Source: Amycolatopsis sp. cg9 (GTDB lineage Bacteria; Actinomycetota; Actinomycetes; Mycobacteriales; Pseudonocardiaceae). From it: DNA of 64,000 bases. Below, in pieces: positions 8,440 through 15,308 of the stretch. The first letter of the stretch is position 1; each line of letters opens with the position of its first letter. The stretch covers positions 620,001 through 684,000 of the forward strand of contig NZ_CP166850.1 in assembly GCF_041346945.1 (NCBI RefSeq). The letters run 5' to 3'. The notes under the pieces are model-generated. The model did not search any database. It was given only the letters and a program-made list of their open reading frames with translations, and was not told where the DNA came from. Made by a program: the position numbers and the translations under genes.

Positions 8440-10107
8440 ATGAGTTCCGATACCTACGACTTCGTCATCGTCGGCGGTGGCTCGGCGGGCTGCGCGCTGG
8501 CGAACCGGCTGTCGGCCGATCCCGCCAACAAGGTCCTCGTCCTGGAAGCGGGCCGGTCGGACTACAAGTGGGACGTCTTCATCCACATGCCGGCCGCGCT
8601 GACCTTCCCGATCGGGTCGAAGTTCTACGACTGGGGTTACCGCAGCGAACCCGAGCCGCACATGAACCGCCGCCGCATCTACCACGCGCGCGGCAAGGTG
8701 CTCGGCGGGTCGTCCAGCATCAACGGGATGATCTTCCAGCGCGGCAACCCGATGGACTACGAACGCTGGGGCGGCGACCCCGGGATGTCCACTTGGGACT
8801 ACGCGCACTGCCTGCCGTACTTCAACCGCATGGAGAACTGCCTCGCCGATGCCCCCGGCGGGCAGTGGCGCGGCCACGACGGTCCGCTCGAACTGGAGCG
8901 CGGCCCGGCGTCGAACCCGTTGTTCCAGGCGTTCTTCGACGCCGCCGAGCAGGCGGGCTACCCGCGCACCGACGACGTCAACGGCTACCGGCAGGAGGGG
9001 TTCGCGGCGTTCGACCGCAACGTCCGGAAAGGACGGCGGCTGTCGGCCGCGGGCGCGTACCTGCACCCGGTGCTGAACCGGCCGAACCTCACGGTGAAGA
9101 CGCACGCGTTCGTGTCGCAGATCCTCTTCGACGGCACGCGCGCGGTCGGGGTCGAGTACACGCAGGGCCGCGGCGTGCCGGGCGAGGTGTACGGCAAGGA
9201 GATCATCCTCTGCGGCGGCGCGATCAACAGCCCGCAGCTGCTGCAGCTGTCCGGCGTCGGCAACGCGGCGGAGCTGGAGAAGCTCGGCATCGACGTCGTC
9301 AAGGACCTGCCGGGCGTCGGCGAGAACCTCCAGGACCACCTGGAGGTGTACATCCAGTACGCCTGCAAGCAGCCGGTGTCGATGCAGCCGTCGCTGGCGA
9401 AGTGGAAGCGGCCCTACATCGGCGCGCAGTGGCTGTTCCTGCGGTCCGGGCCGGCCGCGACCAACCACTTCGAGGGCGGCGGGTTCGTCCGGTCGAACGA
9501 CGAGGTGAAGTACCCGAACCTGATGTTCCACTTCCTGCCGGTGGCGATCCGCTACGACGGTTCGGCACCCACGGAAGGCCACGGCTACCAGGTGCACGTC
9601 GGCCCGATGTACGCCGACACCCGCGGGTCGGTGAAGATCACTTCCACCGATCCGCGGCAGCACCCGGCGATCAAGTTCAACTACCTGTCGACCGAAACCG
9701 ACCGCAAGGAATGGGTCGAAGCCGTGCGGGTGGCGCGGAAGATCCTCAACCAGTCCGCGCTGGACCCGTACAACGGCGGCGAGATCTCGCCGGGGCCGTC
9801 GGTGGAAACGGACGAGGAGATCCTCGACTGGGTCGCCCGGGACGCCGAGACCGCGCTCCACCCGTCGTGCACGGCCAAGATGGGCGTGGACGAGAAGTCC
9901 GTCGTCGACCCGCAGACCATGCGGGTGCACGGCACCGAGGGCCTGCGCGTCGTCGACGCGTCGGTCATGCCCTACATCACCAACGGCAACATCTACGCGC
10001 CGGTGATGATGACCGCCGAGAAGGCCGCCGACCTGATCCTCGGCAACACCCCGCTCGCCCCGCTCAAGCTGCCGTTCTACCGGCACGGGGAAGCCGCCGC
10101 GAAGTAG
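8440..10107 (+). CDS. betA: Choline dehydrogenase (GMC oxidoreductase)
   Basis: The 555-residue flavoprotein oxidises choline to betaine aldehyde. It shows the N-terminal FAD motif [18 protein letters not shown], the GMC signature 1 around [17 protein letters not shown], signature 2 ([14 protein letters not shown]), and the C-terminal catalytic region with HPSCTAKMG and [20 protein letters not shown]. It starts nine bases after the permease with a GGAGG ribosome site, so the three bet genes form one operon. The protein is of normal length for BetA. Confidence 0.92.
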
Positions 10108-10122
10108 CCCGGACGCACGAAC

Positions 10123-10149
10123 GCCCGTACCGCCATCCCCGGTACGGGC
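10123..10149 (+). terminator. Hairpin after betA
   Basis: GCCCGTACCG (10123-10132) pairs perfectly with CGGTACGGGC (10140-10149) around a 7-base loop, 16 bases after the betA stop. There is no long T tract, which is common in actinomycete terminators. It probably ends the betB operon. Confidence 0.65.
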
Positions 10150-10208
10150 CTTCGGCGTGCCCGGGAAGTGTGTTGCCCGCTAACGAAAAACTACCCGGGC
10201 GTACCCCC

Positions 10209-10275
10209 TTGACGACGCCGGGAGCCGTGCTCACACTTGTTGCGTATCACAGTTGATGTTCCCCCATGCGCAACA
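10209..10275 (+). promoter_or_regulatory. Promoter and inverted repeat before the ferredoxin gene
   Basis: TTGACG (10209-10214) and CACACT (10232-10237) are 17 bases apart and fit a vegetative actinobacterial promoter. Overlapping and just downstream, TGTTGCG (10238-10244) and CGCAACA (10269-10275) form an inverted repeat spaced 24 bases. The CTTGTTGC string is shared with the gbcA upstream region, suggesting common control. This is inferred. Confidence 0.4.
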
Positions 10276-10288
10276 TAACGGAGGCGAC

Positions 10289-10609
10289 ATGATTCGCGCG
10301 TGCACGGTGGACGAGCTGCCCCCCGGTGAGTCCGTCCGGATCCCCGGGGCCCCCGCCGTCGCGGTGTTCCACACCGAGGCCGGGGAGCTGTACGCCATCG
10401 ACGACACGTGCACCCACCAGGACGCTTCCCTCGCCGACGGCTGGCTCGAAGGCTGCTTCGTCGAGTGCCCGCTGCACGCGGCGCTGTTCGACCTGCGCAC
10501 GGGCGTGCCGACCTGCCTGCCGGCCAAGGAGCCGGTGCGCACGTACCCCGTCCTCGTCGACGACGGGGTCGTCTACGTCCAGGGCGTGGCGGGCGAGGAC
10601 GCCGCGTGA
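10289..10609 (+). CDS. Rieske [2Fe-2S] ferredoxin
   Basis: The 106-residue soluble protein has two cluster-binding motifs, CTHQDASL (C-x-H) and CPLHAALF (C-x-x-H), separated by about 17 residues, which is the spacing of ring-hydroxylating oxygenase ferredoxins. ATG 10289 (MIRACTVDELP) has a GGAGG site before it. It overlaps the next gene by GTGA, so it is translationally coupled to the reductase. It probably carries electrons to the Rieske oxygenase at 3.4 kb, since no other oxygenase is seen in the window. Confidence 0.88.
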   Translation: MIRACTVDELPPGESVRIPGAPAVAVFHTEAGELYAIDDTCTHQDASLADGWLEGCFVECPLHAALFDLRTGVPTCLPAKEPVRTYPVLVDDGVVYVQGVAGEDAA

Positions 10610-11751
10610 AGCGGGTCGCCGTCGTCGGTGCTTCGCTCGCCGGGGTCCGCGCCGCGCAGGAGCTGCGCGCGCAGGGCTACGACGCCGGGATCGTGCTGAT
10701 CGGCGAAGAGCCGCACCTGCCCTACGACCGGCCGCCGCTGTCCAAGGCGTTCCTGGCCGGGACGGCCTCGCCGGCGTCGCTGGAACTGCTCGACGCGGGC
10801 GACCTCGCCTCGCTGGCCCTGGACTTCCGGCTCGGCGTGCGCGCGACGGCACTGGAGCCTTCGAACCGCCGCGTGCTGCTGTCCGACGGCGGCTCGGTGC
10901 ACGCCGACGGCGTCGTCATCGCCACCGGCGGCCGCGCGCGCACGCTGCCGGGGTTCGAGGGCGCCCACACGCTGCGGACGCTCGACGACGCGGTGGCGTT
11001 GCGGTCTTCGCTGGTGCCCGGGGTGCGCGTGGCGATCGTCGGAGCCGGGTTCATCGGGGCCGAGGTGGCCTCGACGTGCCGTTCGCTGGGTCTGGACGTG
11101 GTCGTCCTGGAAGCGCTGGCCGCTCCGCTGGCGCCGGTGCTCGGCCCGTCGCTGGCCGCGGTGTGCGCCCGGCTGCACCGCGACCACGGCACGGACCTGC
11201 GCTGCGGCGTCGCGGTGGCGGGCATGGACGCGGCCGGCGTCCACCTGGCCGACGGCTCGCTCGTCCCGGCCGACGTGGTCGTGACCGGCGTCGGCATGAC
11301 ACCGGCGACGGACTGGCTGGCGGGCTCCGGGTTGAAGGTCGGCGACGGCGTCCACACGGACGCGGGGCTGGTGACTTCGCTGCCGTCCGTGGTCGCCGTC
11401 GGCGACGTGGCCCGCTACCACGCCGGCGGGACCGGCCGGCGGCACGAGCACTGGACGAACGCGTCCGAGCAGGCCCCGGTCGCGGTGGCCAACCTGCTGG
11501 CCGGGCGGACCACGCGGACGTACGAGCCGAGCGGGTACGTCTGGTCGGACCAGTATTCGGGGACCTTGCAGCTGGCCGGGCACCCGCGGCCGGACGACAC
11601 GCTTTCCTACGTCGACGGCGACCCGGCGTCCTCGTCGTTCGTGGCGGCGTTCCAGCGGGACGGCGAGACGGTCGGGGTGTTCGCGCTGAACAACGCGAAG
11701 CTGTTCAACCGCCTGCGCCGGCAGGCCCTGCGCCGGCCCGCGACCGTCTGA
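10606..11751 (+). CDS. FAD/NAD(P)H-dependent ferredoxin reductase
   Basis: The 381-residue protein has two dinucleotide motifs, VAVVGASLAGVRAAQELR at the N terminus for FAD and VAIVGAGFIGAEVASTCRSL mid-protein for NAD(P)H, plus the LPYDRPPLSKAFLAG segment and C-terminal SVVAVGDVARY found in the BphA4/rubredoxin reductase family. The GTG at 10606 sits in a GTGA overlap with the ferredoxin gene. The pair makes a complete electron supply chain NAD(P)H to FAD to Rieske ferredoxin, most likely for glycine-betaine demethylation. Confidence 0.88.
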   Translation: MKRVAVVGASLAGVRAAQELRAQGYDAGIVLIGEEPHLPYDRPPLSKAFLAGTASPASLELLDAGDLASLALDFRLGVRATALEPSNRRVLLSDGGSVHADGVVIATGGRARTLPGFEGAHTLRTLDDAVALRSSLVPGVRVAIVGAGFIGAEVASTCRSLGLDVVVLEALAAPLAPVLGPSLAAVCARLHRDHGTDLRCGVAVAGMDAAGVHLADGSLVPADVVVTGVGMTPATDWLAGSGLKVGDGVHTDAGLVTSLPSVVAVGDVARYHAGGTGRRHEHWTNASEQAPVAVANLLAGRTTRTYEPSGYVWSDQYSGTLQLAGHPRPDDTLSYVDGDPASSSFVAAFQRDGETVGVFALNNAKLFNRLRRQALRRPATV

Positions 11752-11789: not shown

Positions 11790-12299
11790 ATGGAGCTGAC
11801 CCTCGACGAACTCCGCGCGTTGACGAGCTGGGCCGCGGCGTGCGCTTCGCGCGTCTTGCCGGTGTACGAAGCCCGCGTCCCCGGCGACACCCGCCCCCGC
11901 TCGGCGATCGAGGCGGCGGAGGCGTTCGCCGCCGGGGATCCGCGCACGAAGGTCCTGCGTACGACGGCCTGGGCCGCCCTCGCGGCGGCGGGCGAGACGA
12001 CCGACCCGGCGGCCTCGGCGGCCGCCCGGTCCGCGGTGGCCGCGGCGGGGGCCGCGTACTTGCACCCACTGGAGTCACCGCACCAGGTGAAGCACATCGT
12101 CGGCCCGGCCCAGCAGGCGGCGCTGGCCTCCGAGCTGGCCGGCGGCGACGCGGCGGCGGAGATCCGGTGGGCCCTCTCGCAAGCCCCGCCTGAGGTGCCG
12201 GACCTGCTTCGCCGCTTCCCGCCGGGAAAGCCGGGCCGCACCCGGCTGGGCGAGCTGCACCGGGAGCTGGAGACCGCCCTGCGCGTCAGCGGGGGCTGA
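11790..12299 (+). CDS. Imm-5-like putative immunity protein
   Basis: The 169-residue alanine-rich helical protein begins MELTLDELRALTSWAAACAS and contains RPRSAIEAAEAFAAGD and the later PHQVKHIVGPAQQAAL segment, a pattern I associate with the small actinobacterial 'putative immunity protein' family. Such proteins are predicted to neutralise toxins, but function is unproven and many copies are orphans. No toxin gene is adjacent. It converges on the next operon with a 14-base overlap. Assignment is from remembered family resemblance. Confidence 0.55.
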   Translation: MELTLDELRALTSWAAACASRVLPVYEARVPGDTRPRSAIEAAEAFAAGDPRTKVLRTTAWAALAAAGETTDPAASAAARSAVAAAGAAYLHPLESPHQVKHIVGPAQQAALASELAGGDAAAEIRWALSQAPPEVPDLLRRFPPGKPGRTRLGELHRELETALRVSGG

Positions 12300-13176
12300 T
12301 CTCCGGGAGCGCCGCCTTCTTGTCCCGGAGCATGTTCCGGACCGCGCGGACGACGGTGTCGATGCCCGCCGCCGGCAGCCGGGCCTGGTGGTCGGGGTGG
12401 CGTTCGTCGGAGATGCCGACGACGATCGCGCTCGCGTCCCCGCTCGAGACGACCAGCCGGAACTCGTGCAGCAGCGCCCGCTCGAACCGGTGGCCGCCGT
12501 CGTCGTCCGCGATCTGCGCGGTGACGCGGGTGCCCTCGCGGATCGCCGTCGAGACGGCCACCACGTCCGCGTAGTGGTACTCGTGGGTCTCTTCCTGGAA
12601 CAATCCGGCCACCCGCAGGTCGATCACGCACCGGTAGAGCCCCAGGTGGTAGTCGGTCGGGCAGATCGCCAGCACGGCGTACTGCGAGAACCGCCAGATC
12701 CCGTCCCGGCCGACCACCGCGCGGGACGTGGGGACCGGACCGGTGACGATCAGCGGCTCGCGCGGGGACTCCTCACGCAGCGGTTGCGCCAGTGGGTCCC
12801 AGTCCGCGGGGTCGAGTTCGAGGTCTTCGGCGGTCAGGTCGAGCCGGTCCAGCGCGCGCCGCCGGACCTTCGCCAGCTCGTGGTCGCGGATCTTGTCGAT
12901 GATGGCGTCCCGCGGCTTGGGGAGCGCCGCCTCGCGAGCGTCGCGGTAGGCCTCGAACAGCAGGAAGCCGCGCACCGCGGCGGCCCCGCCGCCCACGACG
13001 AACACGACGCCGATCGGCCAGGAGCCGGTGATCGACGTGAACACCCCGAACAGGAGCAGGGCGAGCCCGCCGAGCAGGTAACCCCAGACGCGTTGGCGTT
13101 CCCGCTCGCCCGGTACCGCCGCGAAGTAGCGGTCGACGACTTCGCGGCGGTCTTCGCCGTAGTCGGACTCGGTCAT
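12286..13176 (-). CDS. Membrane protein of unknown function (last gene of a four-gene operon)
   Basis: The 296-residue protein has a charged N terminus, two closely spaced membrane helices (about residues 29-70, around LLGGLALLLFGVFTSITGSW and VVFVVGGGAAAVRGFLLF) and a long cytoplasmic or exposed part with beta-strand character. Its ATG (13176) overlaps the upstream stop by four bases, so it is coupled to the VVQAG-motif gene. In the C-terminal part, residues such as GLYRCVIDLRVAGLFQEETHEYHYADVV suggest a PH-like or YcxB-like fold, which is a guess. No family was recognised. Confidence 0.75.
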   Translation of the reverse strand: MTESDYGEDRREVVDRYFAAVPGERERQRVWGYLLGGLALLLFGVFTSITGSWPIGVVFVVGGGAAAVRGFLLFEAYRDAREAALPKPRDAIIDKIRDHELAKVRRRALDRLDLTAEDLELDPADWDPLAQPLREESPREPLIVTGPVPTSRAVVGRDGIWRFSQYAVLAICPTDYHLGLYRCVIDLRVAGLFQEETHEYHYADVVAVSTAIREGTRVTAQIADDDGGHRFERALLHEFRLVVSSGDASAIVVGISDERHPDHQARLPAAGIDTVVRAVRNMLRDKKAALPEISPR

Positions 13177-13700
13177 GCCCGGCCCTCCGTCCCCTGGCTC
13201 GCGGCCAGGACTCGCCACACCCGGTTCTCCGGCGCGGTCACGTGCTCGAGGATCGTCCGGACGTGGTCCGGCCCGGCCGCCGCGACGAGTTCGGCCAGCA
13301 GCCCGGATACGGGTCCGCCGCGCTCCCAGAACCGTCCCCGGTCCTCGTCGGTCAGCAGCAGGAGGAGCCGGGCGTGCGGGAGGTGCGCGGTGCGGCGGAG
13401 CCGGTCGCGGACGGCGGTCAGCTCCCGGCTCGACCGGACCCGGTGCGGCCGGTTGCCGCGCAGCAGCGCCAGCGCGAGGAAGAAGTCCAGCCCGGGATCC
13501 GCGGGCGCCGCCCGGGTGAGGTCCGCGATGGCGGTCTCGTAGTCCCTGCGCGCCAAGGCCCGCAGCCCGTCGGCCCGGAAGTCCCGCTCGGGGCTCGCGG
13601 GGTGGTGGACGTCCCCGAGGTACACGGTCCCTGCTTGGACGACCGTGCCGTGCACGTCGCCGCGCACGGTGTTCCGCGAGCTGTCGCCGGGCTGTTCCAT
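13173..13700 (-). CDS. Small helical protein with N-terminal RHIM/BASS3-like VVQAG motif
   Basis: The 175-residue protein starts with a short disordered, polar segment and then VHGTVVQAGTVYLGDV (about residues 16-31), a hydrophobic-Gly pattern with a V-Q-A-G core. The rest is helical and resembles one or two TPR-like units (LRALARRDYETAIADLTRAA, LDFFLALALLRGN). Bacterial amyloid-signalling motifs of the BASS3 type and animal RHIMs share a (V/I)-Q-x-G core, so this could be an assembly motif. It is coupled to a membrane protein downstream. Function is unknown, and the motif assignment is inferred. Confidence 0.75.
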   Translation of the reverse strand: MEQPGDSSRNTVRGDVHGTVVQAGTVYLGDVHHPASPERDFRADGLRALARRDYETAIADLTRAAPADPGLDFFLALALLRGNRPHRVRSSRELTAVRDRLRRTAHLPHARLLLLLTDEDRGRFWERGGPVSGLLAELVAAAGPDHVRTILEHVTAPENRVWRVLAASQGTEGRA

Positions 13701-13776: not shown

Positions 13777-14763
13777 CTAGAGGGCGAGGTCGTCGAGGTC
13801 CGACTCCAGGCGGGCGCGCCAGGTCCACCGGCGTTCCGTCGTGTCGGCGCCGTCCGCCGCCGGCGGCCCCAGGGGCAGCGCCTGGTCCGTGACCTTGAAC
13901 GTCACCCGGTACGCCAGCACCGAAGCCGCCGTGCGGAGCCAGGTGTCGCCGGTCGAGCCGGTGGGCGGGGCGACGCCCAGCGCGTGGCCGAACCAGGTGG
14001 GGAGGAGGGCGTTCGAGCCGAGGGCGTCGGTGATGCGGGTGCGGAGGCGGACCTGCAGGTCGTGCCACGCCCGTTCGGCGCGTTCCAGCTGCGGCACCAC
14101 CCGCGCCTCGACCGCGTCCGCCTCGCGCAGCGCCAGCCGCGCCTGGTCCGCCGCGGCCTCCGCCGCCGGGATCTCCTCGTCCAGCAGCGTCCGGCGGCGG
14201 GTGGTCAGCGCGCGCAGGCGGGACTCCGCGTCGCCGCGGGAGCGGGAGCCGCGGTCGGTGGCCGCCAGGACCCCGATGACGTCCAGCAGGTCGGCGTCGC
14301 ACCGGGCATGTGCCTCGTGCACCGAAGAAAGGCGCGCGATCTCCTCTTCGTACCGCGCGCGCTGCTCCTTCGTGACGAGTTCCTTGTGCAGGTCGTCCCA
14401 CCGCGCCGCCTCGGCCGCCAGCGCGCGCGTCTCCGCGCCGACGTCGTCGAGGTCGACGCGCGGGACGCCGTCGGCCACGCGGACCGCGCGCTCCAGGGCG
14501 TGGACCTGCTGCTGCAGCCGCTCCAGCCGGCGGCCGAGCAGGTCGATCCGGTCCTCCTGCCGGGTCGCGCCGCCGCTTTCGAGCCGCTCGCTGAGGTCGG
14601 CGACGTCCCGGCGCAAGCGGTCGTCGGTCTCCTCGACGGCGGCACGCAACCCGTCCACCGCCGCGAACAGCTCGTCGAGGTCGCGGCGCGTGGTGTCGAC
14701 GGGCTCGACGTACTCCTGCTCGAACTCGGGGTCGTCGCCGTAGGTCGCGTAGCCGTGGCTCAC
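13777..14763 (-). CDS. Coiled-coil protein of unknown function
   Basis: The 328-residue protein opens with an acidic Tyr-rich stretch (VSHGYATYGDDPEFEQEYVE) and then shows long heptad-like helices from about residue 25 to 230 (RRLERLQQQVHALERAVRV and RLALREADAVEARVVPQLE are examples), ending in a short mixed domain with W-rich segments. GTG 14763 was chosen because it overlaps the upstream stop in a GTGA. A longer reading runs antisense-like through the preceding gene and is rejected. No signal peptide or family was seen. Its partner upstream is a membrane protein, so a membrane-attached scaffold is possible. Confidence 0.7.
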   Translation of the reverse strand: MSHGYATYGDDPEFEQEYVEPVDTTRRDLDELFAAVDGLRAAVEETDDRLRRDVADLSERLESGGATRQEDRIDLLGRRLERLQQQVHALERAVRVADGVPRVDLDDVGAETRALAAEAARWDDLHKELVTKEQRARYEEEIARLSSVHEAHARCDADLLDVIGVLAATDRGSRSRGDAESRLRALTTRRRTLLDEEIPAAEAAADQARLALREADAVEARVVPQLERAERAWHDLQVRLRTRITDALGSNALLPTWFGHALGVAPPTGSTGDTWLRTAASVLAYRVTFKVTDQALPLGPPAADGADTTERRWTWRARLESDLDDLAL

Positions 14764-15308
14764 GGGATCCGGCTTTCCCGCCAGAGCAGCCCGGCCGTGG
14801 CCGCGATCCCCAGCGCCGCCAGGATCGTGCAGACCACCGCCGGCGGCCACGGGAGCAGCGCGCCCACCAGCAACCCCGCCGTCACGCTGCCCGCCCACGC
14901 CGCACGCGTCCGCTCGCGGATGACGTCGCCGACCCGGCGGACCGGCGCGAAGCCGATCCACAGGCCCGCGGCGAACAGCGGGACCAGCGCGAACAGCCAC
15001 ACCGGCGAAAGCACCTCGAACAGCACGAGCGCCCCGGCGACCAGCGGCACCAGCACCGGCGCGGCCGCGAACCACACGACCGCGCGCTGCGTCGCCGCGT
15101 GCCGGGCCTCGAGTTCGGCGTTGGCGAGCCGGTGCTTGGCCTCGTCGAACGCCAGCTCGGCGTCGAGCAGCCGGTGGGCGCTCGCGACGAGCCCGTCCAT
15201 CGCCTCGACGTCGCCGGGCGGGGTCGAAAGCCCGTCGCGCAGGTCCTGCTTGAGCCGGGTCACCCGGCCTTCCGCCAGGTCGCGGTCGTGCTGGGCTGGA
15301 GTCGTCAC
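14760..15308 (-). CDS. Four-helix membrane protein of unknown function
   Basis: The 182-residue protein has an N-terminal charged helical region of about 75 residues, predicted coiled-coil-like (LLDAELAFDEAKHRLANAEL), followed by four hydrophobic segments arranged as two hairpins. It is the first gene of the 15308-to-12286 operon and is coupled to the coiled-coil protein. No known domain was recognised. The layout of helical stalk plus four membrane spans suggests anchoring of a complex. Confidence 0.7.
   Translation of the reverse strand: MTTPAQHDRDLAEGRVTRLKQDLRDGLSTPPGDVEAMDGLVASAHRLLDAELAFDEAKHRLANAELEARHAATQRAVVWFAAAPVLVPLVAGALVLFEVLSPVWLFALVPLFAAGLWIGFAPVRRVGDVIRERTRAAWAGSVTAGLLVGALLPWPPAVVCTILAALGIAATAGLLWRESRIP

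Follow-up and report, generated by a model that had tools for sequence, protein, structure and literature searches.

Protein B of Amycolatopsis sp. cg9 begins with a short motif which, judging by its sequence, is a real member of a family common to immune-type receptors and effector-like proteins of the same genome. The gene is followed by that of a two-transmembrane protein, C, and we give an even chance to the reading that B and C form a two-part, membrane-anchored and NTPase-free receptor or adaptor for amyloid-type signalling, whose effectors at the Amycolatopsis locus would act in trans and carry the same motif family. Motifs of this kind are known. The type of carrier, TPR-like plus two-transmembrane (2TM), is undescribed in the literature searched: no TPR-2TM amyloid receptor was found there, most subscription papers lying outside the coverage.

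The window, i.e. the whole stretch of DNA analysed (64,000 nucleotides; G000:C1:620001-684000), belongs to a genome of 10.6 Mb. Coordinates of the relevant features are given in Table 1.

Table 1. Features of the B-C locus and of one receptor/effector-like pair elsewhere in the genome
Feature	Position	Strand	Basis or remark
Gene B: 175-aa protein, N-terminal motif and TPR-like helical domain	13173..13700	-	ORF, alignment, AlphaFold2
Amyloid-signalling-type motif NTVRGDVHGTVVQAGTVYLGDV	13608..13673	-	Residues 10-31 of the 175-aa protein B
TPR-like helical domain of B, residues 41-173	13182..13580	-	AlphaFold2
Gene C: 296-aa two-transmembrane protein	12286..13176	-	ATGA overlaps the stop of B by 4 bases
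Probable membrane hairpin of C: two long hydrophobic helices, residues 24-84	12925..13107	-	AlphaFold2 and hydropathy
Beta-rich domain at the C-terminus of C, ending in a helix; residues 142-288	12313..12753	-	AlphaFold2
L043 pair: NACHT-type protein and 266-aa frame	G000:C1:771560 and 771796-772594	- and +	One adjacent receptor/effector-like pair in the same genome

Motif and helical domain of protein B

An earlier, sequence-only reading of this DNA had pointed to a V-Q-A-G segment at the N-terminus of a helical protein. Translation of 13173-13700 on the reverse strand starts with MEQPGDSSRNTVRGDVHGTVVQAGTVYLGDVHHP and agrees with the letters given there, the V-Q-A-G being exact in the window protein. 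The motif has the pattern N-x-[VI]-x-G-x-V-x-G-x-[VI]-[VI]-Q-A-G-x-V. A profile of 26 positions, made from 13 other copies of the same genome without the window protein, recovered the window copy at E 1.2e-6 (32.6 bits) as the best match outside the training set. These 13 copies, in all of which N, G, G and Q are invariant, were first gathered with profile A2, five of whose eight rows come from the window family. In the genome searches the best 150 of 218 candidates were scored with the 13-copy profile, and the best 150 of 235 with the first profile.

In the AlphaFold2 model, residues 1-29 of B have pLDDT below 50, and the motif is disordered there. Residues 41-173 are well predicted and every element is a helix, as the earlier reading had it. 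Pfam TPR_16 and TPR_19 match this domain below cut-off (E 0.079 and 0.086), and a Pfam TPR match in a relative reaches E 3.6e-6, still below cut-off. Many of the top Foldseek matches of B in the PDB are TPR folds, none of them better than E 0.066. At E <= 1, Pfam matched neither B nor C to an NTPase, and PADLOC 2023 gave no family for either at E <= 0.01.

Sixteen homologues of B were found in one search and three more in another. The motif core G..G-x-[VI][VFI]-Q-[AT] is kept in 14 of 19 aligned sequences, that of the window included; ten of these 14 read Q-A-G and four Q-T-D/H. P0014, a B homologue without the motif, displays in the alignment an apparent decayed remnant of it. The sequence-only reading had made its case depend on a match to a motif family and on conservation of the core among orthologues: the family match exists, yet the core is absent from five of the 19 sequences. 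These five would also suit a chance alternation of Val and Gly devoid of function, a view that we find barely credible in face of the match to a profile made without the window copy, the retention of the core in the other 14 sequences and the matched neighbours which the same slot has in relatives (see below).

Relation to BASS3 and RHIM

RHIMs have the core (I/V)-Q-(I/V)-G. The window motif reads V-Q-A-G, with Ala as third core residue in place of I/V, and no RHIM family was matched by B at E <= 1 in Pfam. What the motif has in common with BASS3, RHIM and fungal PP is a V-Q-x-G core and alternating Val. The core of a verified BASS3 peptide, from Frankia, is G-V-Q-V-G-D-G-N-x-Q-x-N (Table 2 of PMC8086366), and the D-G-N-x-Q-x-N half of it is missing from the window motif. 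Local alignment of the two scores 20, versus 37-69 for the window motif and 14 other motif segments of its own genome; the yardstick here is this one Frankia peptide, not the published BASS3 profile. Judged by this single verified peptide, the window motif is not a BASS3 or RHIM motif but another, putatively amyloid-signalling-type motif associated with NLRs, and the BASS3/RHIM label of the sequence-only reading was dropped. A solitary motif of that class, as was then envisaged, is very unlikely: its terminal position and the resemblance of V-Q-A-G to V-Q-V-G are outweighed by the low score and by about 14 other copies of the family in the genome.

A segment resembling BASS3 does occur in a distant homologue of B that lies outside the 19-sequence set. 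This protein, P0020 (310 aa, from a metagenome), has a helical domain, which we take to be BELL-like, and a QVGDHN segment ahead of a B-type TPR domain (profile E 1.1e-47). The QVGDHN segment scores 43 against the Frankia peptide. Since it precedes the B-type TPR part, motifs resembling BASS3 are in use in the protein family of B as well.

Motif family in the host genome

At least 14 matches at E <= 0.01 were obtained in the genome (the 13 training rows and the window), plus one at 0.016. Five carriers have NB-ARC over the Pfam cut-off (L037, L044, L045, L047, L048) and two have NACHT below it (L042, L043). L049 and L050 are TPR proteins with a P-loop-like stretch, seen by eye in the former and as AAA_16 below cut-off in the latter. 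The remaining types comprise a protein with SEFIR over cut-off (L039, C1:4245888-4248054), a WD40-like protein (L038), an HSP70-trypsin protein (L041) and a protein of 114 aa that ends in the motif (L040, at C1:7666193). In L043, a 266-aa frame with the motif four residues from its C-terminus stands head to head with the NACHT-type protein, whose copy is N-terminal. No Pfam match was found for L040 or for the 266-aa frame (E <= 0.001). By eye, this frame belongs to the same effector family as the neighbours of fused B-C proteins in L136 and L139. The layout of the L043 pair, with the motif at the N-terminus of the receptor and the C-terminus of the effector, is the one described for bacterial amyloid signalling in PMC7889193.

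The host-genome profile search that the sequence-only reading had proposed thus yielded STAND/NLR-type as well as other proteins with matching copies, and its idea of an amyloid-signalling-type terminal motif common to such proteins is supported. Its statement that no partner copy is seen holds for the window, where two motif profiles run over 824 reading frames found one real copy and no second one; it does not hold for the genome, at which scale "solitary" is wrong. The alternative then given, a trans-acting case, may be right and is the one we favour. BASS-type motifs are expected on NLR-type receptors and effectors of the same genome, and this is what was found here (NB-ARC in five carriers, SEFIR in one, and one NACHT-type/effector-like pair). 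They are also expected to have a matching copy in an adjacent gene; in the window, no such copy and no effector stand beside B and C.

Among the copies of the same genome, the window motif aligns best with that of L038 (score 69); with L039 it scores 60 and with L040 55. The all-against-all mean of these copies is 45.5 with s.d. 13.1, so that the scores of L039 and L040 are only about one s.d. above it. Adjacent pairs of the same motif family score 64 (L043) and 49 (G067), and L039 and L040 lie in that range. Relatives of L040 are present in 45 of the 80 genomes of the genus, only four of which are among the five genomes with B. Co-occurrence with B therefore says little, and L040 was rejected as a proven trans partner of B for being too common in the genus.

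Gene C and the neighbourhood of the locus

The four-base overlap (ATGA) of B and C recurs in L034. The AlphaFold2 model of C (mean pLDDT 85.8) places the two helices of the hairpin at residues 24-49 and 53-84, and hydropathy peaks fall within 30-61 and 54-75. For the beta-rich domain, Foldseek search of the PDB gave no known fold (best E 0.057, probability 0.15). PF20712 (CyanoTRADDas_TM) and SLATT 2TM proteins share with C a two-helix membrane hairpin of similar size. PF20712 straddles its cut-off of 24.3 bits in the window protein (24.0 and 26.6 bits in two runs), and relatives fall short of that cut-off (E 0.0049 and 0.082; unlisted for two others). SLATT_1 gives only a sub-threshold match in one fused relative (E 0.078). 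Assignment of C to PF20712 (TRADD-N associated 2TM) was dropped, the match being unstable in relatives.

The main rival to the receptor reading makes C the executioner: NLR sensors elsewhere in the genome, with the same motif at their N-termini, would template B, and C would then open or disturb the membrane. That C is a two-transmembrane protein agrees with this, as do the many motif-bearing NLR-type proteins of the genome, the SLATT_1 match just mentioned and a weak resemblance of the helix hairpin to an alpha pore former (Foldseek probability 0.84, though E 1.3). For related conflict systems, PMC7159879 treats SLATT 2TM proteins as effectors that are predicted to form pores. The evidence which argues against this rival comes from relatives and is given with them.

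Upstream of B, on the same strand, are genes for a coiled-coil protein (13777-14763) and a membrane protein (14760-15308), and further upstream the ORFs read, by eye, like a 2-oxoacid dehydrogenase operon. The coiled-coil and membrane proteins were rejected as parts of the system; they have no motif and are also present at two loci without motif and C. The coiled-coil gene is syntenic in all five Amycolatopsis loci compared. Its product has no Pfam match over cut-off, and the last ~100 residues seem to resemble the C-terminal part of conjugative relaxases.

Distribution in Amycolatopsis

Of the 80 genomes of the genus, five have a close homologue of B, in each case at the same syntenic position. 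Three of them (the host genome, G042 and G077) have both the motif and C; at the locus of G062 and G067 neither is present, and C is absent from these two genomes altogether (best genome-wide E 0.146 and 0.322, respectively). Copies of the motif family at E <= 0.01 number none in G062, two in G067, seven in G042, 15 in G077 and at least 14 in the host genome. Loss of the motif and of C is linked, as far as sequences of this small sample of five related genomes indicate. Since B lacks the motif in two of the five, its TPR part presumably has another use as well.

Cassettes, fusions and exchange of the N-terminal slot in relatives

Homologues of C occur in at least 28 of 386 Pseudonocardiaceae genomes, the best six candidates per genome having been scored. 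Three of these genomes are window-type Amycolatopsis, six have the cassette described below, one has an unfetched 33-residue match, and the rest account for 18 further loci. In 11 of the 28 genomes, all from genus g30, C has no detectable B, meaning no tblastn match (E <= 1e-3) in stretches of 4.7-5.8 kb, mostly about 4 kb upstream of C. C is thus likely to have some use without B.

Distant matches to the B profile were detected in at least seven further genomes of 390 in the family (best eight candidates per genome scored). The weakest of them, in G122 (E 8.6e-4), is by eye an NLR-type protein matched via its motif. The other six (L059-L064) are three-gene cassettes in which genes A, B and C stand together, A coding for a protein of roughly 110-120 aa. 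Most junctions are overlaps of 1-4 bases; gaps of 4 and 134 and an overlap of 49 were also seen, gene calling being rough. Related motifs stand at the start of both A and B (FESNSINASVVQISDVI and FERIDAQIVQIADTI in L061, for instance), and the A/B pair of L064, RDVHANVVNQGENIYVG and RDIHSDTVNIGENIYIG, bridges to the window motif. Beside the intact cassette of L059 lies a second, degenerate one (9452-11635), in which one frame consists of the motif, a truncated TPR part and C, accompanied by A- and B-like genes with decayed motifs.

At seven of the 18 further C loci, B and C are joined in one open frame. Small profiles, run again on four of these fusions, gave E 1.6e-22 to 6.8e-17 for the B part and 1.9e-36 to 6.5e-30 for the C part. 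Six of the seven have an N-terminal motif of another type, e.g. NGDGTVFANQGGDQTVY in L134, and each of these six loci has a neighbour with a matching C-terminal segment. At the seventh locus, L137, the motif profile finds nothing in any frame and no matching neighbour was seen. In L134, L135 and L138 this neighbour is a SEFIR protein. In L133 it is a 125-aa protein with a SEFIR protein nearby, and L136 and L139 have two related proteins, for which (L136.3 and L139.5) Pfam gave no match at E <= 0.1. SEFIR is over the Pfam cut-off in L133, L134, L135 and L138, and one SEFIR partner, run in PADLOC, matches bSEFIR at 1.3e-31.

The slot is not confined to one kind of motif. In relatives it also holds G/Q/N-rich amyloid-like motifs. 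In L132, a B-C protein of 511 aa (B part E 1.9e-11, C part 3.5e-20) and a neighbour of 116 aa have a third motif in common. In L131 (4349-6207), a TIR domain scoring over cut-off is fused to the front of a TPR part of B type (profile E 2e-26), with C following (E 8.1e-38); an effector domain here occupies the place of the motif. In L196, a PF01048 phosphorylase-family protein (E 2.3e-20) has a C-terminal segment that matches the start of the next protein. L196 and L197 both lie outside Pseudonocardiaceae and have phosphorylase-family proteins of this kind beside TPR-type receptors; the receptor of L197 begins with a motif-like segment, of which no matching copy is seen on the phosphorylase. 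The class-wide searches gave at least three and at least four of 394 genomes, the host genome included, with the best six and four candidates per genome scored. Since few candidates per genome were scored in the family and class searches, the spread may be understated.

The N-terminal slot of the TPR-2TM module thus behaves, on the sequences compared, like that of an NLR: it contains either a putative motif that has its match on a neighbouring effector, or else the effector domain. From this behaviour and the lack of a detected NTPase, we take B-C to belong to the receptor side, where C would serve as the anchor in the membrane. C as executioner is rather unlikely for the same set of loci. Fused relatives have the motif at the N-terminus of B-C, i.e. 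on the receptor side; the neighbour with the C-terminal copy has a recognised effector-type domain at five loci (SEFIR in L133, L134, L135 and L138, phosphorylase in L196); TIR can replace the motif on B; and the resemblances to pore formers are all below threshold. The A-B-C cassettes, in which both copies are N-terminal, do not decide the matter.

SEFIR neighbours of four fused B-C relatives and TIR fused to the B-type part in L131 also connect the module to bSEFIR/TIR defence proteins. The locus in the window differs from these, B and C having no PADLOC family and no second motif copy nearby.

Exchange of motifs bears as well on a reading in which the motif is a homotypic docking strand without amyloid and B-C a scaffold or regulator, e.g. 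a decoy capping motif assemblies at the membrane. Specific pairing needs only binding, not fibres, and the window motif resembles many copies of its genome (mean score 51.8, fourth highest of 15), as would suit a decoy. We nevertheless regard docking without amyloid as improbable: the same slot accommodates other amyloid-like types, G/Q/N-rich or, in P0020, BASS3-like, and a BASS3 peptide was shown to aggregate (PMC8086366).

Pairing of neighbouring motifs

Correspondence of neighbouring motifs was evaluated at 12 loci by aligning, in all combinations, the 45 residues that make up the motif end of each partner; loci and ends were picked by eye before the permutation test. The sum of own-pair scores is 655, compared with a permutation mean of 340.5 and maximum of 594, and none of 200000 shufflings reaches it. 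When the comparison is confined to each of the two main motif clusters, in which shared ancestry is of less help, the arrangements that score as well number 8 of 720 and 2 of 120. The adjoining 45 residues inward, taken as control, give no signal (187223 of 200000 shufflings reach the own sum). In a prior run with 11 loci, none of 100000 shufflings scored as well, and the counts within clusters were 8 of 120 and 2 of 120. Part of the pairing signal could come from co-inheritance of neighbours. The degenerate cassette of L059, the SEFIR copy of L133 (for which the 125-aa neighbour was used), L135, L137 (no motif), L196 and L197 were excluded from the test. A matching copy in an adjacent gene is found in relatives of B at the 12 tested loci and, in addition, at L135 and L196.

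Proposed function

The original paper on bacterial amyloid signalling sequences is Dyrka 2020. Motifs BASS 1-10 are described with NLR receptors and BELL, CHAT or TIR effectors, and signalling as running in NLR-to-effector pairs, in PMC7889193, PMC8086366 and PMC9815663. With these systems B has in common a short terminal motif of low model confidence, which recurs in the genome at the N-termini of NB-ARC/NACHT-type proteins and at the C-terminal ends of effector-like ones, and matched adjacent copies in relatives. It differs from them in being TPR-like without an NTPase, tied to the two-transmembrane C and devoid of an adjacent effector in the window.

If B-C is the receptor or adaptor that we favour, C would anchor the complex via its two-helix hairpin, and a cue would be sensed by the TPR-like domain of B, perhaps with a contribution from the beta-rich part of C. 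In response, the motif at the disordered N-terminus of B would nucleate a cross-beta assembly, which would template the matching motif on effector proteins, possibly with cell death as outcome. In related actinobacteria the effector would usually be the product of the adjoining gene. No neighbour in the window has the motif, so a trans partner is implied if the motif is used. Such partners of the window B may be encoded elsewhere in the chromosome, the likely ones being the SEFIR protein L039 and the 114-aa, presumably BELL-like L040; we offer this as a proposal, not as a result.

More tentatively, and with somewhat less than even confidence, B-C may represent a class of NTPase-free receptors: membrane-tethered TPR-2TM proteins whose N-terminal slot swaps between different amyloid-type motifs and whole effector domains, the motifs having their match on SEFIR, phosphorylase or small helical neighbours. 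The Amycolatopsis copy would have shed an effector of its own and become wired into a genome-wide VVQAG network linking a membrane sensor, cytosolic NLRs and common effectors. If TPR-2TM proteins are a second receptor type, templated-assembly signalling would be a shared bus and not a property of NLRs, and membrane events could feed into amyloid-type signalling. Motif swaps and matched pairs provide receptor/effector couples that lend themselves to direct testing, among them SEFIR proteins of a kind known from defence.

Further motif-bearing genes

The labels BELL-like (also for L040), cyclase-like and EACC1-like are tentative. The motif-bearing L041 is an open frame of 2190 aa (G000:C1:8760423-8766993) with HSP70 and trypsin-like domains over the Pfam cut-off, the motif copy being ahead of both. 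The WD40-like protein of L038 (5756-7424) has an N-terminal motif and directly follows a 128-aa protein, which presumably resembles EACC1 of the Kaur 2020 conflict systems.
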